Shown: positions 3,782-36,225 of the stretch, one piece after another
Position numbering within the stretch: the stretch's first letter is position 1
How the letters are laid out: each line of letters starts with the position of its first letter
Assembly (NCBI GenBank): GCA_022729355.1
Contig: JALDAN010000005.1
Location: 1-36,523 of the forward strand
Length of the DNA stretch: 36,523 nt
Direction: 5' to 3'
Source: Candidatus Nanohalarchaeota archaeon
GTDB lineage: Archaea > Nanohalarchaeota > Nanosalinia > Nanosalinales > Nanosalinaceae
The notes under the pieces: generated by a model
Seen by the model: only the letters and a program-made list of their open reading frames with translations
Databases searched by the model: none
Told to the model about the DNA's origin: nothing
Translations under genes and position numbers: made by a program

Positions 3782-4066
3782 TTATTCTTCCACGATTACG
3801 CTGATCTTTTGACGGCCTTCTGTCTCTTCCTGTGTGAAGTTGTCTTGATTCAGTTTGATTTCTAACTCCAGTTCCTTTTCGTTTTTGTCTTCTGAGAAGC
3901 TCAGTTCGATATTGCTGTCCTGATTAGGTTCTATCTGAAGTTCTTCTCTTCCCCGGAAGCTGAGGCCTATCTCTCCTTCTCTCAGTTTCTGGGAGAAGTT
4001 TTCCAGGAAGTTAGCTAGTTCTTCGTTTGAGAATTCAAAGCTTAGTTCTACCTCTTCGCTTGGCAT
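3782..4066 (-). CDS. Amphi-Trp-like domain protein
   Basis: This 94-residue protein matches the pattern of the small halophilic amphi-Trp family: an N-terminal helix (NEELANFLENFSQKLREG), then alternating acidic amphipathic strands ending in a Glu-Leu repeat (EKELELEIKL). The family usually has a tryptophan in the final strand, but this protein has none, so it is a divergent member. Its function is unknown. An AGGCCT copy and a short GAAAG/CTTTC inverted repeat lie just past its stop, possibly a terminator. Confidence 0.6.
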   Translation of the reverse strand: MPSEEVELSFEFSNEELANFLENFSQKLREGEIGLSFRGREELQIEPNQDSNIELSFSEDKNEKELELEIKLNQDNFTQEETEGRQKISVIVEE

Positions 4067-13494: not shown

Positions 13495-13511
13495 AAGGCC
13501 TTTTAGGCCTT
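13495..13511 (-). terminator. AGGCCT-built hairpin at the EF-2 stop codon
   Basis: A perfect seven-base stem AAGGCCT/AGGCCTT with a three-base loop overlaps the TAA of the EF-2 gene. A pyrimidine-rich tract (TTATCTTTTCC and following) lies beyond it on the minus strand. It is likely a terminator or a 3'-end stabilising structure. Confidence 0.5.
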
Positions 13512-15696
13512 ATTCTTCTTCGAGGCTTGGCATTTCCTGTTTCATGCCTTTTCTTTCTCTGATGTCCAGGATCTTTTCTTCCTGAAGATTCATTGGAAGT
13601 GGCTCGAAGATGATGTCGATCAGGCTGAAGAATCCCTGTCCGTTTGTAGCTGATTTCAGTGCTGCTTCGAATCCGAACAGTTCCTCTACAGGGAGCTTGC
13701 ATTTGATGACTGAGCTGTCTCCTTCTTCCTCCATGTCGATGACGTCTCCTCTTCTGTTGGAGACTTCTGTCATGGCCTCTCCCATTGTATCTGTCGGTGT
13801 ATCGATTCTCAGCTTCTGCTTCGGCTCGATCAGTTCTGGGCCTGCCTGCAGGAATCCTCTTGTCATGGCATCTTTCGTCGCCGGGATCATCTGTGCAGGG
13901 CCTCTGTGGATTGCGTCTTCGTGCAGCTTTGCGTCGTGAAGCTTGACCTTGAAGCCGATTACAGGCTCGTTTGCAAGCGGTCCTTCGTCACAGAATTCCT
14001 TGAATGCGTCGACAAGGTATTCCTCGATCTCTCGCAGATTCTTGATTCCTCTGGATGCGTTGACAAACATGTTCTCCTCGTATACCTCCATGACGTTGTC
14101 TGCCTCGTCCTTGTCCATTCCTGCCTCGATCAAGGCCTCTTTGATTTCATGCTGTTCATCCGCCTGCATTTTGACTTCCTCGTACTCTTCCTTGAGGAAC
14201 TTTCTGACAGATTCCTCCAAAGGCTCTACGCTGATCTCAAGCTTGTTGTGCCGGTTCGGGGACTTCCCTGTGACTTCCGGGGAGGCCTCTGTGATTCCTT
14301 CTCTGAATACGACGATCGGCTCTGAAACTTCAATGTCGATTCCCTGTTCCTCCAAGTGTCTTTCTACTTTAGCCTCGATGTGTAGTTCTCCAAGGCCTGA
14401 GACTGTTGTCTCTCCTGTTTCCTCATCGATGTCGACTTGGATTGTGTTGTCCTCCTTACTTCTTTTTCTCAGTTCCTCAATCAGCTTCGGTAGATCGCTG
14501 GTACGCTTCGGCTCAATCGCCTTTGTAACGACTGGTTCGAAGACGTGCTCAATCTGTTCGAACGGCTGAATCTCTTCCGCGTCCTTTGCGATTATTGTCT
14601 CTCCTGTTGAGAAGTCAGGTCCTGTGATCGCCGCAATATTTCCTGCCGGTACCTCGTCCACGGTAAGCTTTCTTGGTCCTGAGTAGATCCCTACCTGCTG
14701 TGCTCTTTCCTCTTTGTGTGACTCGATTCCGTATAGTTCATCTCCTTCATGTACGGTTCCGGAGAAGATTCTGGCAGTTGCGATTGTTCCTGCGTGCTCG
14801 TCGTCTTCAACGTTGGTGACGACTCCTACGAAAGGACCGTCTTGGTCCTGCTTGGCCATCGACTGTCCTACTTCGGAATCTGCGTCTCCAGGCCAGATAG
14901 CCGGGATACGGTACTGTGAAGATTCCTGAGGATTGTTAAGGTGTTTAACTACCATATCAAGTACGACTTCCTCAATAGGCGCATCTTCTGAAAGGCCTTC
15001 ATGGTCGCCATTGTTTACTCTTTCAATTATATCTGAGAAAGTGATGCCTGTCTCCTGCATGTAAGGAGCGGAAATAGCCCAGTTCTTCAATGCTGATCCG
15101 AAAGCTACTGTTCCATCATTTACAGCCATCTGCCATCTTTCAGCTGTTTCCTCATCAGAATACTTTCTCAAAATGTTATTTACTTTCCTAATGATCTCAG
15201 TGAATCTTTTCTGCATCTCCTCCGGTGTAAGCTGCATCTCCTCTATCAGTCTATCGACTTTGTTGATGAACAGTACCGGCTTGACACCTTCATTCATAGC
15301 CTGTTTCATGACCGTCTCTGTCTGAGGCATAACACCATCAACAGCGTCAACAAGCACTACAACACCATCAACAGCACGCATAGCACGGGTAACGTCTCCT
15401 CCAAAGTCAACATGCCCAGGAGTATCAATAAGATTTACAAGATAGTTAGAGCCATCGTACTCGTGGACCATCGAGATGTTGGCAGAGTATATAGTGATAC
15501 CTCTCTCCGCCTCCTGATCATCGAAATCCATGAAACGCTGATCTCCAGCCAGCTTCTCCGAAATCATGCCTGCACGGGCAAGAAGATTATCTGTTAACGT
15601 AGTTTTACCGTGGTCAATGTGTGCAGCGATAGCAATGTTCCTGATATGCTCAGGATCATTAATTACCTCCTGAATTGCGTCAAGCTCTTTACTCAT
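13510..15696 (-). CDS. fusA: Translation elongation factor EF-2
   Basis: This archaeal aEF-2 has about 728 residues and drives ribosome translocation by GTP hydrolysis. Motifs seen are AAHIDHGKTTL (G1), RGITI (G2), DTPGHVDFGGD (G3), NKVDRL (G4), and the domain IV loop KLHEDAIHRGPAQ with its His near residue 597, the site modified to diphthamide. The ATG at 15694-15696 (MSKELDAIQ) is chosen over an in-frame ATG nine codons upstream because family members start here. It lacks the usual EF-1A/S10 neighbours; Tat genes separate it from S7. The Dph6-containing fusion at 31307 would act on this protein. Confidence 0.98.
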   Translation of the reverse strand: MSKELDAIQEVINDPEHIRNIAIAAHIDHGKTTLTDNLLARAGMISEKLAGDQRFMDFDDQEAERGITIYSANISMVHEYDGSNYLVNLIDTPGHVDFGGDVTRAMRAVDGVVVLVDAVDGVMPQTETVMKQAMNEGVKPVLFINKVDRLIEEMQLTPEEMQKRFTEIIRKVNNILRKYSDEETAERWQMAVNDGTVAFGSALKNWAISAPYMQETGITFSDIIERVNNGDHEGLSEDAPIEEVVLDMVVKHLNNPQESSQYRIPAIWPGDADSEVGQSMAKQDQDGPFVGVVTNVEDDEHAGTIATARIFSGTVHEGDELYGIESHKEERAQQVGIYSGPRKLTVDEVPAGNIAAITGPDFSTGETIIAKDAEEIQPFEQIEHVFEPVVTKAIEPKRTSDLPKLIEELRKRSKEDNTIQVDIDEETGETTVSGLGELHIEAKVERHLEEQGIDIEVSEPIVVFREGITEASPEVTGKSPNRHNKLEISVEPLEESVRKFLKEEYEEVKMQADEQHEIKEALIEAGMDKDEADNVMEVYEENMFVNASRGIKNLREIEEYLVDAFKEFCDEGPLANEPVIGFKVKLHDAKLHEDAIHRGPAQMIPATKDAMTRGFLQAGPELIEPKQKLRIDTPTDTMGEAMTEVSNRRGDVIDMEEEGDSSVIKCKLPVEELFGFEAALKSATNGQGFFSLIDIIFEPLPMNLQEEKILDIRERKGMKQEMPSLEEE

Positions 15697-15817
15697 TTTT
15701 ACATATACACCGAGTTTATACACCAGAAATTCTTTACAAGATTTAAAAAAGGCCTACTCAAAAAGTAACTAAGACTTCTTCCTGCTACTACTGTGAAGGC
15801 CTATGCTGACAAGTATT

Positions 15818-31306: not shown

Positions 31307-33259
31307 ATGTGCGGCATAGCAGGAGCAGAAAAACAGGAAACAGTAGAACAATTAGTGCATCACATGGAGCACAGAGGCCAGAGCTGCCACACACAGAAAG
31401 CCGGAGGCCTTTCAGTAGGACACGTTCTTCACTCCGTAGTCGGCACCGTGGAACAACCACTTGAGGGCGAAGGCCTGCTGTCAGCCAACTGCGAAATATA
31501 CAACTGGAAAGAGATAAATAATGCATATGGCTGGGAAACAGAGAACGATGCCGAAACACTTCTGAAGCTGCTTGATAGAGAAGGAGTAGAAGGCCTCGAA
31601 CAGATAGACGGAATATACGGCTTTGCATACATCAGGAACGGCGAACTTGTACTGGCACGTGATAGACTCGGCGTAAATCCTGTCTGGTACAGTGAAGAAC
31701 CCTTCGCATTTGCATCAGAGAAACAGGCACTTGAGAAAGAAGAATACGAGGCCCAGGAACTCCACCCACGACAGATACTAAAATACGATATAGAGGAAAA
31801 AGAGATAAGATTTGAGAATAGGCCTTTTTTCGAGTTAAATGAACAGGAGAAAGAGCTTGAAAAGGCCTCTGAGGAGATAAAGAACTTGATACTTGAAGCA
31901 GTTGAAAAGAGAGTTCCTGAAGGTGAAGTCGGGCTTCTTTTCTCTGGAGGCCTTGACTCCACAGTAGTGGCTGCTGCTTTACAGGAGCTTGGAAAAGATT
32001 TCACTGCGTACACAGCAGGTATACAGCACGGAAACGTTTCTGCTCCTAGAGACTTTGAGAAAGCGCAGGAAACAGCAGAGAAAATGGATTTCCCACTGGA
32101 GAGTTACGAGGCCTCTCTTGAAGACGTGGAGGATGCGTTACCGGATCTCGTTGACTGGATTTCCAGCAGTAACGTGGTGAAGATCGGTGTTGCACTGCCT
32201 TTCCATTTCTCACTGAAGCAAAGTGGAGATGAGCAAGTGGTTTTCACCGGTTTTGGTTCAGAGCAGCTTTATGCAGGCTATGCCCGTCAGCAGGGTTATC
32301 TGAATAAGGAGTGTCTCTCTGATCTGCGAGGTATCTTTCATGAAGATCTCTACAGAGATAACGTCGTAGCTTTCCGGCATGGAAGAGAATTGCGAGTGCC
32401 TTTCCTTGACGAAGATCTAGTTGAGCATGCTCTTTCCATTCCGGATGATTTGAAGAGGAATGAGGAGTATCGAAAGTATGTTTTGAGGAAGGCTGCGGAG
32501 AAACTTGGGGTTCCGGAAGATGTTGTATGGAGGAAGAAGGTTGCAGCTCAGTATGGGTCAAACTTCGATAAAGCACTGAACAGATTGACGAAGAAGAACG
32601 GATACAGCCAGAAACAGGCCTTCCTGAACAGCTACAGAGAAAAAGAGAACAAAAAACTCGTGGCACTGACTTCCGGAGGCAAAGACTCTAACGCAGCTCT
32701 TTTCCGGATGTGGAGACGGAACAACGATCTCTCCTGTCTCCTGACATTGAGATCAGAGAATGAGGCCTCCTACATGTTCGACTCCAAGAAAACAGATAAA
32801 GACCTAGAATGGCAGGCAGAGCAGCTCGATATCCCGTTGATAAAGCAGCGTACTGAAGGAGAGAAAGAGAAGGAACTAGAGGATCTCAGGGAAGGCCTTA
32901 AGAAAGCAAAGAGCCGGTACGGCGTAGAAGGTGTTGTCGCCGGTGCAATAGAATCCAGTTATCAGAGAGATAGAGTTGATAGAGTGGCGGATGAAGTTGG
33001 ATTGAAGGTTTTCACTCCTCTCTGGCAGTTCAATCAGGATCAATACATGAAATGGCTTGTAAGGAACGGTTTCGAAGTTGAGATAACTGAAGTAGCAGCC
33101 AGAGGCCTCTCAGATGACTGGAAGTCTAGAGTACTGGACGGTGACGCAGTTGAGGAGTTACTGGATCTTGCGGAAGAGTATCGTTTTCATCCAGCAGGTG
33201 AAGGCGGAGAATATGAGACACGGGTAGTCGGTTTCCCCTGCGAATTACTGGATAATTAA
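31307..33259 (+). CDS. Fused class II amidotransferase / asparagine synthetase / Dph6
   Basis: This 650-residue three-part protein has an N-terminal class II glutamine amidotransferase: MCGIAG with Cys2 as the nucleophile, EHRG, NCEIYN and the DA-E residues that bind glutamine. Then comes an AsnB-type PP-loop domain (SGGLDS at about 213, FTGFGSEQLYAGYAR, RVPFLDEDLVEHAL, then VWRKKVA). A Dph6-type diphthine-ammonia ligase domain follows (SGGKDS at about 455, GVVAGAIESSYQRDRVDRV, FTPLW, HPAGEGGEYET). All active-site motifs look intact. Standalone archaeal Dph6 is about 220 residues and uses free ammonium. Glutamine-fed amidation of diphthine on EF-2, or asparagine synthesis plus diphthamide formation, is inference. 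Confidence 0.93.
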   Translation: MCGIAGAEKQETVEQLVHHMEHRGQSCHTQKAGGLSVGHVLHSVVGTVEQPLEGEGLLSANCEIYNWKEINNAYGWETENDAETLLKLLDREGVEGLEQIDGIYGFAYIRNGELVLARDRLGVNPVWYSEEPFAFASEKQALEKEEYEAQELHPRQILKYDIEEKEIRFENRPFFELNEQEKELEKASEEIKNLILEAVEKRVPEGEVGLLFSGGLDSTVVAAALQELGKDFTAYTAGIQHGNVSAPRDFEKAQETAEKMDFPLESYEASLEDVEDALPDLVDWISSSNVVKIGVALPFHFSLKQSGDEQVVFTGFGSEQLYAGYARQQGYLNKECLSDLRGIFHEDLYRDNVVAFRHGRELRVPFLDEDLVEHALSIPDDLKRNEEYRKYVLRKAAEKLGVPEDVVWRKKVAAQYGSNFDKALNRLTKKNGYSQKQAFLNSYREKENKKLVALTSGGKDSNAALFRMWRRNNDLSCLLTLRSENEASYMFDSKKTDKDLEWQAEQLDIPLIKQRTEGEKEKELEDLREGLKKAKSRYGVEGVVAGAIESSYQRDRVDRVADEVGLKVFTPLWQFNQDQYMKWLVRNGFEVEITEVAARGLSDDWKSRVLDGDAVEELLDLAEEYRFHPAGEGGEYETRVVGFPCELLDN

Positions 33260-35148: not shown

Positions 35149-36225
35149 TCATATGTGCCTAAGATTGAGCTGAAGGATATCCTCATCCTGAAGTTCGTGT
35201 TCCTCTCCTACCTTCTGTTCCGGGAACTTTGAGCTTGGGCCTGTTACTCTGGCGTGTTTGAAGCGGTCTTTCATGTCGCCAGGCAGTATTTCAAGTGCAT
35301 CAGCTACTTCATCTCCCTCCCTCAAGATTAAAGGCTCTTCTTTATCCGGTTCTTCTCCTTTCTCCTTCATGTACACTCTGATAAGGCCCATCCTGTCGAA
35401 TATCATATCCTTCAAGTCGTCAAGGCCTTCCTCCTTCTCTGCGGAGATCAGTAGATCGTATTCTTCATATTCAGACTTGTCTTCGATCATATCTGCCTTG
35501 TTGACTACTTTGATACCTGGAAGATACTTTCTGTTATTCATGAGTGCGTCAATAAATCTATCAAGATCCAGATCCTCTCTGATTATGACTTCAGCGTTAC
35601 TGTATCCGTTATTGTACATCAAATCCTGAATAGTCTCCTCTTCCACATCCAAGTCGACTGTGGCTGACACGTTTATTCCACCACGATCTTTCTTCTCCAC
35701 GCGTACTTCAGGTGGTTGCTTGTTCATCCTGAGGCCTGCCTTGTAGACTTCGTTCATTATCTCCTCTTCACGCATCTCCTCCGGATCCAGAACTATCAGT
35801 ATGAGATCGGCGTTTCTGACGACCGAAAGCACCTGTGTGCCTCCTCCTCTGCCGTCAGCTGCTCCTCCTATAAGGCCTGGGACGTCAAGTATCTGTATAT
35901 TGGCTCCTTTATGTTTCAGCATCCCGGGATTTACTTCAAGAGTGGTGAATTCATAGGCTCCTGTATCCACTTCAGCGTTAGTGAGTTTGTTCAAAAGTGT
36001 GGATTTCCCTACACTTGGAAAGCCTACAAGTGCGACAGTTGCGTCTCCTCTTTTCTCTACAGCGTATCCTGAGGTGTCTCCCGTACCTTTCGCCAGTTTC
36101 TGCTTCTTCTCCTTCAGCTTCGCTATCTGGCTTTTAATCCGGCCTCTCTCCTTCTCAGTAGCCTTGTTCACCGGCGTCTTCTGGAGCTTCTCCTCCAACT
36201 CCTCAATACGATCCTCAACACCCAT
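35149..36225 (-). CDS. drg: Drg-family GTPase with TGS domain
   Basis: This 358-residue Drg/Rbg protein is an Obg-like GTPase associated with translating ribosomes. It has the N-terminal helical EERLQKTPVNKATEKERGRIKSQIAKLKEK region, P-loop GFPSVGKST, DVPGLIGGAADGRGGG (G3 with Gly-rich stretch), NKADMI (G4), SAEKEEG (G5), and a C-terminal TGS domain (IRVYMKEKGEEPDKEEPLILREGDEVADAL). A TTATAATAT promoter element lies about 33-41 bases before the ATG. A complete copy. Confidence 0.95.
   Translation of the reverse strand: MGVEDRIEELEEKLQKTPVNKATEKERGRIKSQIAKLKEKKQKLAKGTGDTSGYAVEKRGDATVALVGFPSVGKSTLLNKLTNAEVDTGAYEFTTLEVNPGMLKHKGANIQILDVPGLIGGAADGRGGGTQVLSVVRNADLILIVLDPEEMREEEIMNEVYKAGLRMNKQPPEVRVEKKDRGGINVSATVDLDVEEETIQDLMYNNGYSNAEVIIREDLDLDRFIDALMNNRKYLPGIKVVNKADMIEDKSEYEEYDLLISAEKEEGLDDLKDMIFDRMGLIRVYMKEKGEEPDKEEPLILREGDEVADALEILPGDMKDRFKHARVTGPSSKFPEQKVGEEHELQDEDILQLNLRHI

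Follow-up and report, generated by a model that had tools for sequence, protein, structure and literature searches.

The question raised by this locus is what a single protein could do with a glutamine amidotransferase, an asparagine synthetase-like ATP pyrophosphatase and a diphthine-ammonia ligase (Dph6) joined in one chain. The gene belongs to a salt-lake archaeon and lies at 31307..33259 (+) of the window, by which we mean the whole stretch of 36,523 nucleotides analysed. It runs from an ATG at 31307 to a TAA stop at 33257-33259 and encodes 650 amino acid residues in a single unbroken frame; homologues of the same architecture exist. In the Pfam comparison the order from the N- to the C-terminus is GATase_7 (residues 49-143, 8e-17) with GATase_6 (residues 34-138), Asn_synthase in two stretches (1.4e-39) and Diphthami_syn_2 (residues 450-644, 3.8e-51). 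Three domains can be delimited: a class-II (Ntn) glutamine amidotransferase or glutaminase domain, residues 1-175 (31307..31831, +; PF13537, PF13522 and the AlphaFold2 model), an AsnB-type PP-loop ATP pyrophosphatase domain, residues 180-445 (31844..32641, +; PF00733 and the Foldseek match to 1ct9), and the Dph6 domain, residues 449-650 (32651..33256, +), recognized by Pfam, NCBIfam and PDB matches and by its catalytic and EF-2-interface residues. The sequence-only reading of an intact amidotransferase with Cys2, an AsnB-type PP-loop and an intact Dph6 in one 650-residue frame is borne out by Pfam, NCBIfam and the reading of the frame.

By sequence, residues 452-644 match P. furiosus PF0828 and P. 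horikoshii PH1257 in the PDB, and the rest of the chain matches asparagine synthetases and beta-lactam synthetases. The AlphaFold2 model of the whole chain, built on an alignment of 80 sequences, has a mean pLDDT of 92.7 and a pTM of 0.90. Foldseek aligned it with E. coli AsnB (1ct9) over 478 columns with a TM-value of 0.77 by target, and with P. furiosus PF0828 (3rk1) with an rmsd of 1.5 Å. An assembly error joining two genes is ruled out, since the same joint is found in more than 90 other archaeal sequences, including complete genomes, single-contig genomes and isolates.

It is important to note that this architecture is already known, although the sequence-only reading was aware of no described example. 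In 2012 de Crecy-Lagard et al. reported an AsnB-DUF71 (Dph6) fusion in Methanohalophilus mahii, Methanosalsum zhilinae and 'Ca. Nanosalinarum' J07AB56 (PMC3541065). They likewise put forward glutamine as the source of ammonia, with the GAT-II domain feeding both PP-loop domains. These fusions have the same order of GAT-II, Asn_synthase PP-loop and Dph6, with no architectural difference from the window fusion. A reviewer of that paper, Aravind, asked which PP-loop takes the ammonia and what the AsnB-like one catalyses. A search of the later literature found no answer to this question, and a literature search for biochemistry on any fusion member found none. The residue and lineage evidence presented here sharpens both halves of the question, the PP-loop that uses ammonia and the product of the AsnB-like domain. 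The new points are the single origin of the fusion, its split into adjacent genes, the loss of the AsnB glutamate, the replacement of Arg49, the repeated death of the glutaminase and the genome context in which the fusion is the only Dph6; all but the last are absent from the available part of the 2012 text. Yeast YLR143w is a eukaryotic Dph6 which is likewise fused to a proposed ammonia supplier, RidA-like domains (PMC3541065). The partner domains of YLR143w are unrelated to those of the archaeal fusion and are C-terminal.

The C-terminal domain scores 174.1 bits against a cut-off of 23.2 bits for Pfam PF01902, and its 221.9 bits for TIGR03679 (Dph6_archaeal) are above the equivalog cut-off of 197.3 bits. 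PP-loop 2, SGGKDS, is formed by residues 456-461 (32672..32689, +), as seen in the translation and the residue check. All 15 of the PF0828 ATP-binding and EF-2-interface residues that were checked are retained in the window fusion, among them the PP-loop and interface set S44, Y45, E78, Y103, Q104, A149, E183, E186 and E188, which rules out a degraded Dph6 in the fusion; the list of EF-2-interface residues comes from PMC3541065. The archaeal Dph6 proteins PF0828 and PH1257 (3rk1, 2d13) share the PP-loop, ATP and EF-2-interface residues with this domain, but they are free-standing and extend further at the extreme C-terminus than the nanohaloarchaeal fusions do. The domain of the window fusion covers Pfam positions 2-190 of 219, and the same shortfall of about 28 final positions is found in nearly all other nanohaloarchaeal fusions. 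In the window this end falls at 33200-33259, about 28 profile positions before that of free-standing Dph6 and of fusions outside the nanohaloarchaea.

The window genome comprises 886 kb in 48 contigs and is 89.6% complete. A second PF01902 gene was sought in it and was not found, so that the separate Dph6 elsewhere that the sequence-only reading had raised against itself did not appear, and the fusion is the only Dph6. Both Dph2 and Dph5 were detected. The same reading had placed EF-2 with its modifiable histidine in the window, and this is correct: the gene is at 13510..15723 (-), and its diphthamide target loop LHEDAIHRGPAQ keeps the target His; this EF-2 is the probable substrate. The two genes are about 15.6 kb apart on opposite strands, and their proximity is therefore of little weight. 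In the nanohaloarchaeal family f5, Dph6, Dph2 and the fusion are all absent in 5/5 genomes; Dph6, fused or not, thus goes with the diphthamide pathway. This is a sister family that lost Dph2 and Dph6 jointly. The residue and genome evidence makes it very likely that the fusion has a diphthamide function, and we regard participation of its Dph6 activity in diphthamide synthesis as nearly certain.

Two observations on EF-2 may be added. In the family f5 (genomes G022 and G024-G027; EF-2 loci L138-L142) the loop DAIHRG has become DPAHRG or DHVHRG, in both of which the His is still present, and the pattern looks like a loss of diphthamide within Nanohaloarchaeota. In another nanohaloarchaeal species (L144, G021:C11, approximately 168108-170276) EF-2 has an open frame of 1234 aa and apparently contains an intein before TTLTDNLLFRAG, the GTPase P-loop.

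The residues of the AsnB-like domain were surveyed in 92 non-identical fusions, numbered by E. coli AsnB. PP-loop 1, which is SGGLDS in the window fusion (residues 213-218; 31943..31960, +), reads SGGxDS in 92/92, and the ATP-binding Lys449 is likewise kept in all 92, as is Tyr357. The site of AsnB Glu348 (human Glu364) is occupied in the window fusion by Phe316 (32252..32254, +). Across the survey this position is Leu in 62 fusions, Ser in 25, Phe in 3 and Met and Asn in 1 each, and is acidic in none of the 92. The alignment has no gaps across this motif, where GEGSDE of AsnB is compared with GFGSEQ, GLGSEE or GSGADE of the fusions. In human ASNS Glu364 is essential, and the E364A and E364Q proteins are inactive (PMC6748925). 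The fusion also scores only 225.3 bits for the asparagine synthase family TIGR01536, below the cut-off of 267.1 bits. In summary of the comparison with E. coli AsnB (1ct9) and human ASNS (6gq3), the fold and arrangement of glutaminase and PP-loop are common, as are AsnB residues Cys1, Asn74, Glu76, Asp98, SGGxDS and Lys449, but the fusions differ at Glu348, at Arg49 (Leu, followed by His) and at Gly75 (Cys), and in falling under the TIGR01536 cut-off.

Since no acidic residue is found at the Glu348 site in any of the 92 fusions, the name asparagine synthetase is probably wrong, and these residues give us good confidence that the AsnB-like domain is not a normal asparagine synthetase. The loss of Glu348 would be decisive only if the rest of the pocket is not rearranged. 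Stand-alone archaeal AsnB-like proteins also lack Glu348, with mostly Gln in its place, and some of them may still be asparagine makers. A functional asparagine synthetase attached to Dph6, the reading implied by database names and by PMC10266531, would agree with the AsnB fold and PP-loop, and the fusion is the one PF00733 (Asn_synthase) gene of the window genome. However, the non-acidic Glu348 site, the replaced Arg49 and the inactive human variants all argue against such an enzyme. In addition, the window genome contains two GatB_N genes whose frames measure 481 and 623 aa and which by these lengths are probably GatB and GatE of tRNA-dependent amidation, so that asparagine need not come from the fusion; and one fused species (G023) has a separate AsnB-type frame of 631 aa. 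We therefore consider a tethered asparagine synthetase improbable. The link between asparagine synthesis and diphthamide formation offered by the sequence-only reading is disfavoured with it, as the catalytic Glu of AsnB is absent from every fusion examined.

The few amino-acid genes named in a nanohaloarchaeal genome paper of 2023 include an asparagine synthase AsnB (PMC10266531). In our survey of the genus and family of the window the fusion is the only matching gene. Attributing asparagine synthesis to nanohaloarchaea on the basis of this gene calls for caution. Short stand-alone AsnB-like PP-loop proteins of about 270-340 aa, which have no glutaminase, were also observed in archaea (L129, L128, L187-L191 and others). 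They have mostly Gln or Leu at the AsnB Glu348 site and a KKAAQYGS-like motif.

The glutaminase domain of the window fusion has a full set of active site residues, with Cys2, Asn61, Glu63 and Asp81 corresponding to AsnB Cys1, Asn74, Glu76 and Asp98. The nucleophile Cys2, in the sequence MCGI (31310..31312, +), is Cys in 88/92 fusions, and Asn74, Glu76 and Asp98 are each kept in 90/92. The fragment Arg49-Leu50 of AsnB, in which Arg49 is a contact residue for glutamine, is replaced by Leu41-His42 (31427..31432, +), with Leu in 89/92 and His in 90/92 fusions, and AsnB Gly75 is Cys in 90/92. Arg48 of human ASNS can make a direct contact with glutamine (PMC6748925). The loss of Arg49 could mean an amide donor other than free glutamine. 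As a signature of the fusions alone this loss is ruled out, since Leu is found at the same site in Methanosarcina-type stand-alone AsnB-like proteins; the His after the Leu is characteristic only of the fused and split class, plus one stand-alone protein (G050).

In at least three lineages the glutaminase is inactivated while both PP-loop domains are kept. Within the nanohaloarchaeal family f3 the Cys is replaced by Gly at one locus (L016), and by Ser together with deletion of the glutamine pocket at another (L019). The domain is degenerate or truncated in L024. In the species read of genus g71, where the gene is split, neither the Cys nor the LH and NCE motifs survive, and the AsnB-like motifs stay, PP-loop 1 being mostly SAG instead of SGG. 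Residue identity to the fusion L004 within Nanohaloarchaea is 193/266 for PP-loop 1, 144/195 for Dph6 and 103/175 for the glutaminase, so that conservation is about the same in the AsnB-like and Dph6 domains and lower in the glutaminase. Most fusions retain the glutaminase, which has nevertheless been lost repeatedly, whereas none of them has lost PP-loop 1. Judged from these alignments, PP-loop 1 and not the glutaminase is the constant partner of Dph6.

These data bear directly on the possibility of a channelled glutamine-dependent diphthamide synthetase, in which ammonia would pass through the AsnB-like domain, as a nucleotide-gated conduit, into the Dph6 site. The retention of the Cys, Asn74, Glu76 and Asp98 in 88-90/92 fusions is consistent with this scheme, as is that of Glu398 in 91/92, which we take to be the equivalent of Glu-414 in the C-domain of human ASNS. 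The latter residue nears the glutaminase pocket (PMC6748925). The glutaminase and PP-loop 1 are predicted to hold the AsnB arrangement within the three-domain model of pTM 0.90, and Glu364, which in the human enzyme borders the tunnel at its synthetase end, is replaced in the fusions mostly by L, S or F. Channelling was already proposed in 2012 (PMC3541065). However, lineages with a dead glutaminase still have both PP-loops although they would have no use for an ammonia conduit, and PP-loop 1 has complete ATP-binding motifs; we hold this scheme only tentatively. Glutamine-derived ammonia may reach diphthine, though this is somewhat short of probable. The channelling of glutamine ammonia to diphthine, as suggested by the sequence-only reading, is weakened by the replacement of Arg49 by Leu in 89/92 fusions and by the death of the glutaminase in at least three lineages; it is possible and not obligatory.

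Alternatively, the AsnB-like domain might be an independent ATP-dependent ligase, with an acceptor other than aspartate, which is tied to Dph6 via EF-2 or the pathway and is itself the main client of the glutaminase. The invariance of SGGxDS and Lys449, a conservation of PP-loop 1 equal to that of Dph6 in Nanohaloarchaea and the stand-alone archaeal versions of 270-340 aa devoid of glutaminase all point in this direction, but there is no candidate acceptor and the stand-alone versions may be another subfamily, so that the proposal is a tentative one as well. A further, rather unlikely reading would make the AsnB-like PP-loop, instead of an asparagine synthetase, a second ATP-dependent ligase of the diphthamide/EF-2 pathway, which stays with Dph6 even in lineages with a dead glutaminase. 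If so, archaeal diphthamide synthesis would include an unrecognised additional step or acceptor, and the glutaminase may take an amide donor other than free glutamine. The glutaminase-AsnB half could also be a scaffold devoid of catalytic activity, which might for instance confer stability or recruit EF-2. The repeated decay of the glutaminase and the change of SGG to SAG in most g71 species read would suit a scaffold, but the full PP-loop and Lys449 in 92/92 fusions and Cys2 in 88/92 make it improbable.

The explanation that we moderately favour is that the fusion is the only diphthine-ammonia ligase of the cell, with an unconventional AsnB-like half and a glutaminase that serves as an optional ammonia feeder. 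According to its family membership and residue conservation, the Dph6 domain would adenylate the diphthine carboxylate on EF-2 with ATP and amidate it with ammonia. In the N-terminal half a class-II glutaminase packs against an AsnB-type ATP pyrophosphatase, and the constant core of the protein is formed by the two ATP pyrophosphatase domains. Where the glutaminase is intact, as in the window fusion, it probably frees ammonia for use inside the protein, with glutamine as the presumed amide donor and Dph6 as the presumed recipient; members with a dead glutaminase are presumably ligases acting on free ammonium.

The scan of genome contigs gave 80 loci, nearly all of them full-length fusions. They belong to Nanohaloarchaea, Woesearchaeota/Nanoarchaeota, Diapherotrites, an Altiarchaeota-labelled bin and Methanosarcinaceae, and include isolates such as Methanolobus bombayensis DSM 7082. 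The fusion is present, as a whole or broken frame, in 17 of the 18 other genomes of the genus and family of the window, and the one genome that has no fusion is incomplete. Among 150 genomes of the Methanosarcinaceae order, 38 of the matches listed lie in frames of 708-769 aa, and most others are free-standing.

Trees of the Dph6 domain were calculated with 117 and with 126 rows; these are quick trees in which many deep forks are open. The window domain groups with other fusions and forms a pair with the domain of G001, which belongs to the same genus. Fusion L004 of G001 and L032 ('Ca. Nanosalina' J07AB43) have identical scores, and the genus is therefore probably Nanosalina. On the trees the distribution of fused and unfused forms requires two changes: the fusion event was essentially a single one, and a split came later. 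The split clade (97, starred) consists of two Methanosarcinaceae genera nested in the fused Methanosarcinaceae. In these genera the inter-domain linker holds a stop codon and the Dph6 frame begins at once; the two halves adjoin in 10/10 species placed on the 126-row tree. Genus g67 has an intact glutaminase half although its gene is split, and splitting alone is thereby ruled out as the cause of the death of the glutaminase. The split lineages, one genus having a live glutaminase and the other a dead one, are natural constructs for testing glutamine-dependent diphthamide synthesis. In one split-genus Methanosarcinaceae species (L171, G206:C35, reverse strand) the free-standing Dph6 contains a single in-frame TAG at 3981-3983 with both halves well-matching; this may be a pyrrolysine codon, or else reflect a sequencing error or a gene that is broken.

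A DRG/Obg-type GTPase gene is located near the window fusion at 35149-36225 (-), and such a gene is found near the fusion in 15/80 loci, mostly upstream and on the same strand. DRG proteins act on ribosomes, and this neighbour therefore fits a role in translation. The link is weak, as the loci are mutually related. The GTPase recurs beside the fusion at L049, L057, L060, L072 and others, often immediately upstream in the same orientation, and at L060 the two are found in one open frame of 1045 aa.
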